NCBI GenBank assembly: GCA_021741245.1
Contig: JAIOYF010000007.1
Span: 124,001-188,000, forward strand
Reading direction: 5' to 3'
DNA: 64,000 nucleotides
Origin: Paracoccaceae bacterium
GTDB lineage: Bacteria > Pseudomonadota > Alphaproteobacteria > Rhodobacterales > Rhodobacteraceae
Of the stretch, positions 59,679 to 61,526 are shown piece by piece. The translations under genes were made by a program, and so were the position numbers. The notes under the pieces were generated by a model, which searched no databases, had not been told where the DNA came from, and saw nothing but the letters and a program-made list of their open reading frames with translations. Position 1 is the stretch's first letter. Each line of letters opens with the position of its first letter.

Positions 59679-59879
59679 TTACTTCGCTGCTTCAGCAGCT
59701 TTTTGGTTGAGAACAGTCAGCACGCGCGCGGCATCCCGACGGACGGCACGCATACGGGCGGTATTCTCAAGCTGGTTCGTAGCTTGCTGGAAGCGCAGGT
59801 TGAAGGCTTCCTTCTTCAGCGAGACGAGCTGATCACGCAGCTGGTCGGGCGTTTTGGCACGCAGTTCAGTGGCGTTCAT
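59679..59879 (-). CDS. rpmC: 50S ribosomal protein uL29
   Basis: A 66-residue uL29, [40 protein letters not shown] in type. ATG 59879 is preferred; an A-rich ribosome-binding site (AAGGAAAAGG) precedes it. It is normally directly after rplP. Here 1.2 kb with an oxygenase gene separates them, so rpmC is probably the first gene of its own transcript. Confidence 0.97.
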
Positions 59880-60240
59880 GCGCCTTTTCCTTTTCTCAAT
59901 CACCAGACGGCCCCTTTTCAGGGTGACCGTGAACCTGATGGATCAATGACAAACCAGCGATTCTGGGAAACCCCGAACCGCTGGATGCGTCCCTATAGGG
60001 GAGTGACGGGTATAGGGCAAGCGAGAAGTTGGGGTTTGCCCAAGGTGACGTTGAACGGCCCCCTGATCAGACGCAGGCCAGTGGGCAAGAGGCTGGATCG
60101 GCGACGGATGGTCCCGACGTGTCGCTAGTGCACGCAGCCATGTAAAGGCTGCCTTCGCCCAAAGCGCATCCGGGAACGCCCCCTCGCGCTATCATCGTGA
60201 CCGGAGGGAAGATTAATCCAAGTCCTAACGCTACCGACGC
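59880..60240. other. Intergenic stretch between the oxygenase gene and rpmC
   Basis: About 360 bases with no convincing open frame. It contains a promoter-like pair for rpmC (59992-60020), an inverted repeat GCAGCC/GGCTGC at 60135-60153 and a palindrome CCCTATAGGG at 59991-60000 that includes the candidate -10. Confidence 0.5.
59992..60020 (-). promoter_or_regulatory. Candidate promoter of the rpmC-rpmD gene run
   Basis: On the minus strand TTGCCC (60020-60015), 17 bases, then TATAGG (59997-59992), about 110 bases before rpmC. Consensus matches are three and four of six. A promoter is needed here if transcription from rplP stops at the terminator at 61006-61035. Confidence 0.35.
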
Positions 60241-60864
60241 TTACGCCCATTCGTAGTTGAAACTCACCGAAATCCGCTCTTCTTCAGACATGTTCATCGG
60301 CACCTCGTGGCGGAGCCAGCTTTCCCACAGCAGCACCTCACCCACCTCTGGCTTCACATAGACAAAGCTTTGCAGTTCCTGTGCCGCCTTCTTCAGGCGC
60401 AAGGGGGCGTGCATCATCATGGGCAGGCGCGGGTCTTCGAGTTTCAGGGCAGAGGTGCCAGCTGGCATCGCGACATAGGTGGTGCCCGAAATCACCGAAT
60501 GCGGATGGATGTGGCTGGCGTGCATGCCGCCTTCGGGCAGGATATTGATCCAGAATGACCCGCATTTGAGCTTTCTGTCTTGCAGATCAAAACCCAAATC
60601 TTTCACAAACGCTGCAACATGCTTATCCAGCGCCTTTTCCAGATCGGCAAAGATAGGGAAACGCCACGGCAGATCGTTGAGCGAGGCGTAAGAAGTATAG
60701 CCCGGATAACCATTCGCTTCGCACCACTCCTGCCCAGCCTCATCATCTTCGGCGATACCGTTGCACGCGGCCGCAAGCTCGGCATAGTCGATCTTTTTCT
60801 TGGCAGGCGTATTCACCTCGGCGCGATAGAGGCGTGTGACAAAGAGATTTGAGATTTCGGCCAT
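60241..60864 (-). CDS. TIGR02466-type 2-oxoglutarate/Fe(II) oxygenase, directly downstream of rplP
   Basis: A 207-residue protein. The double-stranded beta-helix core shows the iron-site region HASHIHPHSVISGTTYV (about 115-131), DPRLPM, GEVLLWESWLRHEVP with the distal His186, and RISVSFN with Arg197 in the R-x-S position that binds 2-oxoglutarate. This pattern fits the putative 2OG-Fe(II) oxygenase family TIGR02466. ATG 60864 is chosen over a GTG at 60909. It is on the same strand as the ribosomal genes, between rplP and rpmC, where most bacteria have no gene. A terminator separates it from rplP. The substrate is unknown; a ribosomal protein is an attractive guess. Confidence 0.82.
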   Translation of the reverse strand: MAEISNLFVTRLYRAEVNTPAKKKIDYAELAAACNGIAEDDEAGQEWCEANGYPGYTSYASLNDLPWRFPIFADLEKALDKHVAAFVKDLGFDLQDRKLKCGSFWINILPEGGMHASHIHPHSVISGTTYVAMPAGTSALKLEDPRLPMMMHAPLRLKKAAQELQSFVYVKPEVGEVLLWESWLRHEVPMNMSEEERISVSFNYEWA

Positions 60865-61005
60865 GGCGAAGGTGTTCCGGGTTTGAGAGGTGATGTTGTC
60901 AGCTTTCACAAAGACACGCTGAGTTCAATAGGCCGGATGGGACATCCAGCCATGCAAAGGCCCCTGCCCTATCCACACCCCAAAAGGGAGGTGGGCAGAA
61001 ACGAA

Positions 61006-61035
61006 AACACCCCCGCTGTTGCCAGCGAGGGTGTT
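61006..61035 (-). terminator. Terminator after rplP, inside the ribosomal cluster
   Basis: Thirteen paired positions (AACACCCTCGCTG with CAGCGGGGGTGTT on the minus strand, one U-G pair) around a GCAA loop, followed by TTCGTTTC, 77 bases after the rplP stop. As plus-strand RNA one pair would be mismatched, so the orientation fits rplP transcripts. Confidence 0.7.
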
Positions 61036-61112
61036 CTTTAGCTTGGTGGTCGCAGCCTGCCCTATGCTTTCACACGCGCATCACCGCACCGGTTATGCCC
61101 GAGGGCAAGACC

Positions 61113-61526
61113 TTACCAGTCTTCGCGCGCAACAACGCGGGTCAGCACCGGAAGCTTCATCGCACCAAGGCGCAGGGCCTCACGTGCGATCACTTCGGAA
61201 ACGCCGTCGATCTCGAACATGATACGACCGGGTTTCACCTTGGCCGCCCAATAGTCGTTCGAGCCTTTACCTTTACCCATACGCACTTCGACGGGCTTGG
61301 CCGACACTGGGACGTCCGGGAAAATCCGGATCCAGACACGACCTTGACGCTTCATGTGGCGGGTGATCGCGCGGCGAGCCGCTTCGATCTGACGCGCGGT
61401 AACCCGCTCTGGCTCTGTGGCTTTCAGCGCGAACGAGCCGAAGTTCAGCAAAAAGCCGCCCTTTGCTTCGCCGTGGATCTTGCCTTTGAACTGTTTGCGG
61501 AACTTAGTCCGTTTAGGTTGCAGCAT
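61113..61526 (-). CDS. rplP: 50S ribosomal protein uL16
   Basis: A 137-residue uL16 with [51 protein letters not shown] and [27 protein letters not shown]. Arg82 in VRMGKGKG corresponds to E. coli Arg81, which is hydroxylated by the 2OG oxygenase YcfD (RoxA). It lies 13 bases after rpsC; a 2OG oxygenase gene is next downstream. Confidence 0.98.

Follow-up and report, generated by a model that had tools for sequence, protein, structure and literature searches.

The rplP–rpmC gap and its oxygenase gene

A 64,000-nucleotide stretch of a Paracoccaceae bacterium genome (contig JAIOYF010000007.1, positions 124,001 to 188,000; hereafter the window) carries a gene for a putative 2-oxoglutarate (2OG)-Fe(II) oxygenase within its ribosomal protein cluster. 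Specifically, the gene lies between rplP (uL16; 61113..61526, minus strand; PF00252 and TIGR01164 matches), the final gene of the upstream ribosomal unit, and rpmC (uL29; 59679..59879, minus strand; PF00831 match and order of the open reading frames (ORFs)), the opening gene of the downstream one. The rpmC ORF spans 59679-59903, with a likely ATG start at 59879, and is followed by ORFs that by eye correspond to rpsQ, rplN, rplX, rplE, rpsN and rpsH. The oxygenase ORF (60241-60909, minus strand) would encode 222 amino acids from a GTG start; the ATG at 60864 is preferred as the likely start because the alignment with the solved orthologue 2rg4 begins there, which gives a protein of 207 amino acids (60241..60864) identified by profile matches, orthologue alignment and fold. 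This protein matches TIGR02466 over its full length (274.4 bits, cut-off 62.5, E = 5.8e-82) and PF13759 (2OG-FeII_Oxy_5; 122.4 bits, cut-off 27, E = 1.1e-35), the latter being its sole Pfam match at E up to 0.001. Both scores, together with the lack of a PF08007 domain, bear out what an initial annotation had proposed for the range 60241-61526, which takes in the oxygenase gene plus rplP: a TIGR02466-like 2OG oxygenase from a family other than that of the uL16 hydroxylase YcfD, situated between rplP and rpmC on one strand (the ORFs are all on the minus strand).

Retention at one site across Rhodobacterales

In a drawn sample of 121 Rhodobacterales genomes, all with one family code, TIGR02466 matches occurred in 100, two of which (G057 and G110) held a distant paralogue alone. 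Close orthologues were thus present in 98 genomes, and 96 of these keep the gene beside rplP and/or rpmC: 90 between the two and 6 next to one of them, at a contig end or where the cluster is split. This association is stronger than the initial annotation could know. Unrelated loci in close relatives, which it had named as evidence against a ribosomal link, were found in the 2 remaining genomes (G018 and G073) and in none of the 96. The rplP–rpmC gap measures 0.9 to 26 kb in 88 of the 90 genomes; the two remaining gaps reach 102 and 641 kb. The cluster is broken at this point in G111, G096 and G075, whose rplP and rpmC matches share a contig but are separated by 0.64, 0.52 and 0.10 Mb. Of 80 named loci, 79 show rplP and/or rpmC along with the oxygenase on one contig piece; L062, a short contig labelled Beijerinckiaceae, contained none of the 12 proteins searched for.

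We also compared 142 gap loci, 119 of them with the oxygenase. This proportion is not a frequency, because loci fetched as oxygenase-bearing are mixed with genomes chosen with and without the gene; how common the gene is can be read from the 121-genome sample. ORF families other than the oxygenase each occurred in at most 5 of the 142 gaps, with the exception of one cluster from 36 loci that we read as antisense shadow ORFs of the oxygenase gene itself. A search for oxygenase relics in the 23 gaps devoid of the gene returned a best match of E = 0.037 in a very small search space, which we took as chance. Partial second copies of the oxygenase (L012:5993-6094, L042:6517-6615 and G060:C45:160424-160555) and of rplP (G102:C3:277272-277448) lie within the gap or at its edge, which hints that duplication or recombination has taken place there, and a tRNA gene appears, by eye alone, on the opposite strand in the gaps of L137 and L149.

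A probable boundary between two ribosomal transcription units

The region downstream of rplP contains a predicted intrinsic terminator (61004..61037, minus strand; 73-nt fold and our own stem scan) with a 15-bp GC-rich stem including two G-U pairs, a 4-nt loop and a U-rich 3' arm and tail. The 73-nt fold has a z score of -4.37, and none of 200 shuffles was equally stable. A fixed-rule terminator scan did not list it, its five matches all being on the plus strand; we think that the rule, which looks for a T run beyond the stem, missed an element whose T run is part of the stem's own pairing. In 136 of the 142 gap loci (116 of 119 with the oxygenase and 20 of 23 without it), a terminator-like stem occurs no more than 180 nt past rplP, compared with 5 of 142 in a control of one mononucleotide shuffle each. 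In 78 of 80 loci where the oxygenase is co-directional with rplP, the stem lies wholly ahead of the oxygenase match.

At the other end of the gap, a promoter-like element (TTGCCC-N17-TATAGG; 59992..60020, minus strand) precedes rpmC. The pattern TTG[CT]-N17..19-TAT, picked after inspecting the sequences, recurs upstream of rpmC at 130 of 147 loci, where mononucleotide shuffles predict 2.2, and the element may well function as a promoter. With the terminator after rplP and the promoter-like element before rpmC, one ribosomal unit thus ends ahead of the oxygenase gene and another begins beyond it. In Escherichia coli, by contrast, uL16, uL29 and uS17 are encoded in a single S10 operon, as described in PMC2704228. 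The rplP–rpmC spacing in other alphaproteobacteria was about 5-56 nt at all 29 measured loci (from the best 30 loci of 57 genomes, the 30th, from Rhodobacterales, being unmeasured), so that the split between rplP and rpmC is, as far as sampled, a trait of Rhodobacterales. One locus of the spacing set (L243) held one oxygenase match at E up to 1.

Membership of the oxygenase gene in an S10-type operon, that is, a co-directional gene with no terminator between, was considered and ruled out by the terminator, the orientation flips and the spacing: the gene and rplP occupy opposite strands in 50 of 90 genomes, and a stem intervenes in 78 of the 80 co-directional loci.

A candidate leader RNA upstream of rpmC

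A hairpin at 59901..59940 (minus strand), supported by covariation and by the RNA model R1, abuts the rpmC ribosome-binding site on its 5' side. It comprises a 6-bp P1, an internal loop, a 4-bp P2, a 2-nt bulge and a 3-bp P3. Across 95 aligned leaders, 97.3% of cells in the 13-pair structure were paired, compared with at most 52.6% when the structure was slid along the alignment; 8 of the 13 pairs showed double changes, with 130 such cells against 19.9 ± 10.1 in shuffled alignments, the structure having been drawn from the very alignment (A3) on which covariation was scored. The leader set was reduced from 147 loci to 106 by removing near-copies and then to the 95 of A3. Among the 11 omitted leaders, L133 and L156 lack the element, whereas L014, L039, L069, L072, L146, L187, L205, L208 and L209 were left out for shifted starts or list shortening; the pair counts therefore hold for element-bearing loci.

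The model R1 had a single match in its own genome and none other at E up to 1 (150 of 1282 first-look candidates scored). It matched exactly once in 119 of the 121 Rhodobacterales genomes, in every case upstream of a ribosomal gene, on the same strand and ending 7-15 nt before the L29 match; the two genomes with no match, G014 and G110, both have very short gaps. Among 143 genomes of the class searched with strict filters, only 3, all from the family of the window, had a match (0 of 140 others). These genome searches scored 31 and 36 first-look candidates per genome and may miss weak further matches. The leader is present in 21 of the 23 loci with no oxygenase, and the two are therefore separable.

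No Rfam 15 family exceeded its gathering score at the leader, and at E up to 5 only three far weaker matches fell within 59870-60240, none of them corresponding to it. The terms 'L29' and 'rpmC' are absent from the main text of PMC7247131, which reports 20 new ribosomal leaders, and further literature searches, whose coverage left out most subscription journals, found no rpmC leader. The element is probably a new ribosomal-protein leader and a probable autoregulatory element for the rpmC operon. When it was set against what we take to be the ribosomal RNA sites of S8 and S17, no clear mimicry was apparent. The leader is a strong RNA element: 119 of 121 genomes carry a single copy, which heads a large ribosomal operon, and the set of known ribosomal leaders would gain from it a site and perhaps a ligand. 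The window also contains the L2-Alphaproteobacteria leader RF03142 (63758-63824, minus strand), before rplB.

Probable inversion and exchange of the oxygenase gene

Among the 90 genomes with the oxygenase between rplP and rpmC, the gene has the same orientation as rplP in 40 and the opposite orientation in 50. On a tree of 12 ribosomal proteins, which took 78 of the 80 loci, there are 10 changes in presence at the locus and 11 in orientation; taken alone, its starred branches require 'opposite' to change at least 7 times when scored against all other rows, gene-less rows included. The oxygenase alignment rejects the ribosomal topology (approximately unbiased test, p = 7e-13), as does the reverse comparison (p = 6e-5), across 54 loci with one of two identical rows (L197) left out. 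We infer that the gene has been lost, inverted and exchanged repeatedly at one site, the exchange plausibly proceeding by recombination in the conserved ribosomal flanks.

A predicted three-histidine active site

The oxygenase has the double-stranded beta-helix fold of the 2OG-Fe(II) oxygenase superfamily. Among the 50 fold matches listed, its nearest folds are enzymes of the prolyl hydroxylase domain (PHD) and PPHD type, and the characterised enzymes among them include prolyl hydroxylases of EF-Tu and of uS12. No JmjC or YcfD entry occurs among these 50, a listing that does not exclude likeness to JmjC enzymes. On the basis of their place in the strand order, H119, H121 and H187 are predicted to bind the metal (residue numbering follows alignments A1/A2, in which residue 2 is the start methionine). 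The 2-His-1-carboxylate triad, HxD/E...H, is thereby replaced with HxH...H. The three histidines are invariant in 24 of 24 aligned relatives, including two distant paralogues, and HxH was found at all 24 loci fitting a pattern that leaves that residue free, out of 34 scanned; the 10 loci outside the pattern include two cyanophage relatives and a Streptomyces relative. In collagen prolyl 4-hydroxylase, a swap of the HxD-to-HxH type reportedly destroyed activity.

The motif RxS is the usual 2OG-binding motif, its basic residue serving the 2OG C5-carboxylate. By sequence alone, the oxygenase has this motif, with R198 as the predicted 2OG-site residue: R198 is invariant and S200 is present in at least 90% of the 24 aligned relatives. 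The enzyme may therefore use 2OG, bound through R198 and S200. An alternative is that the protein is a three-histidine oxygenase that does not use 2OG, or a non-catalytic sensor. The invariance of the histidines speaks for it, as does the precedent of cysteine dioxygenase, which according to PMC2767507 has a three-histidine site; the conserved RxS and a fold nearest to 2OG enzymes among the matches listed speak against it, and we regard it as distinctly unlikely. Since the conserved HxH...H departs from the textbook triad, this protein offers a clean test of whether a three-histidine site can perform 2OG chemistry.

Candidate substrates

YcfD hydroxylates L16 at position 81 (PMC4682802 and PMC4295552), and the initial annotation had suggested that the oxygenase could be an independent enzyme modifying uL16 or another ribosomal protein or factor. 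In agreement with that annotation, Arg82 in VRMGKGKG is present in the window, and a profile search of the genome returned no PF08007 match, with matches in 4 of 14 named genomes, E. coli included, as positive control. An Arg82 hydroxylase acting in place of YcfD would account for both observations. However, all 78 loci compared, whether they have the oxygenase or not, carry the arginine that precedes MGKGKG, and its presence is therefore uninformative. Furthermore, the 12 genomes of the 121 with a PF08007 match (above the cut-off in 11) all have the oxygenase as well; the two kinds of protein are therefore not mutually exclusive, and they co-occur rather than replace one another. Given also that the oxygenase belongs to a different domain family, we consider this reading very improbable. 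Replacement of YcfD by the oxygenase was ruled out on the same co-occurrence, with PF08007 matches that may or may not be YcfD orthologues.

A broader translation-linked role was examined in 12 ribosomal proteins, in which no column was fully conserved with the oxygenase and less than 60% conserved without it (uncorrected for ancestry). Co-evolving ribosomal residues were considered and rejected: the many small Fisher p values in these proteins, likewise uncorrected for the tree, were read as shared ancestry, and no site passed the strict rule. The step from location to a ribosomal substrate, which the initial annotation had taken, finds no support in the anatomy of the locus, with a terminator before the gene, orientation flips and orthologues outside the order away from S10/spc genes; position alone is no proof of ribosome modification because the oxygenase is its own gene, often facing the other way. 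Even so, a ribosomal or translation-factor substrate is possible because EF-Tu and uS12 prolyl hydroxylases are among the nearest characterised folds. We think it unlikely that the enzyme is a translation-linked hydroxylase that targets some ribosomal protein other than uL16, or a translation factor (EF-Tu, for example), and owes its location to that role. An oxygen-linked ribosome-control module at the rplP–rpmC boundary, joining a three-histidine PHD-fold hydroxylase of a translation component to a new autoregulatory leader controlling the split-off rpmC operon, is a speculative extension to which we attach little probability.

Orthologues outside Rhodobacterales bear on a further alternative, namely that the protein is an oxygenase of small molecules and owes its position solely to history. 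None of 12 S10/spc ribosomal proteins, the only ribosomal genes covered by the neighbour search, was found within about 7-8 kb of the 11 close orthologues examined outside the order. One of these, L112, groups with Rhodobacterales sequences in the oxygenase tree, and transfer or a mis-binned contig is therefore possible there. The 20 neighbour proteins scanned (18 from ten of the outside loci, none from L122, and one each from the relocated L124 and L125) reveal mixed, mostly metabolic surroundings outside the order, and distant relatives of the oxygenase occur in cyanophages and on plasmids, both of which fit this alternative. Less compatible with it are the lack of a recurrent pathway partner, except for a HAGH-type hydrolase gene beside the oxygenase in L115 and L118 (one genus), and retention near ribosomal genes rather than with a pathway. 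We hold it to be a serious possibility, if somewhat doubtful. In Synechococcus phage S-CAM3 (L245), the relative lies between psbD and a glutaredoxin gene.

A probable stand-alone oxygenase at an operon boundary

The explanation we favour, with moderate confidence, is a stand-alone TIGR02466 oxygenase that has an unusual HxH...H site and its own transcription and is kept at an operon boundary. Under this model, the usually contiguous ribosomal cluster would have been split in Rhodobacterales at rplP|rpmC into two units, the first closing at an intrinsic terminator after rplP and the second opening with its own promoter and leader RNA. The resulting boundary would tolerate insertions, with the oxygenase as the sole recurrent gene, kept there by common descent and by exchange between lineages through recombination in the ribosomal flanks. 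The single-domain oxygenase would be transcribed separately from both ribosomal units; most likely, it would bind a metal through H119, H121 and H187 and 2OG through R198 and S200, and oxidize a peptide or small-molecule substrate inside its PHD-like fold.

Several observations weigh against this model. Distances between oxygenase pairs correlate with those between the ribosomal proteins (r = 0.49), and part of the oxygenase descent is therefore vertical; the protein is also short, at about 210 columns, with 10 starred branches in its tree. The 142 gap loci are non-random, many having been fetched because they bear the oxygenase. Fifteen genomes have flanks that lie far apart, are split or fall on different contigs, yet they keep the oxygenase no more than 4 kb from rpmC (12 genomes) or rplP (3 genomes), a closeness that would not be required of a mere passenger. 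Finally, outside the order, the L119 orthologue is located just upstream of a YchF-family ATPase gene (L119:8508-10307), and that of L121 just downstream of a small-domain methyltransferase gene (L121:7183-7938). The case also illustrates that residence within a ribosomal cluster does not by itself make a gene ribosomal.

Relation to known systems

The oxygenase is present in most sampled Rhodobacterales genomes and has two solved TIGR02466/PF13759 orthologues, 2rg4 from Oceanicola granulosus and 3bvc from Roseovarius nubinhibens, from which no difference in sequence or fold was found; yet literature searches retrieved no described function for the family. Besides these two, no PDB relative was found by sequence below E = 0.38. 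YcfD (JmjC type, PF08007, uL16 Arg81 hydroxylase) and the oxygenase are both annotated as 2OG oxygenases but belong to separate families, the oxygenase having no PF08007 domain. The rpmC leader resembles RF03142 and the other leaders of Eckert et al. 2020 (PMC7247131) in being a structured RNA 5' of an alphaproteobacterial ribosomal operon, and differs from them in the operon that it precedes. The EF-Tu prolyl hydroxylase PPHD of Pseudomonas putida and HIF PHD2 share about 11-17% identity with the oxygenase and have an HxD...H site, in contrast to its HxH...H.
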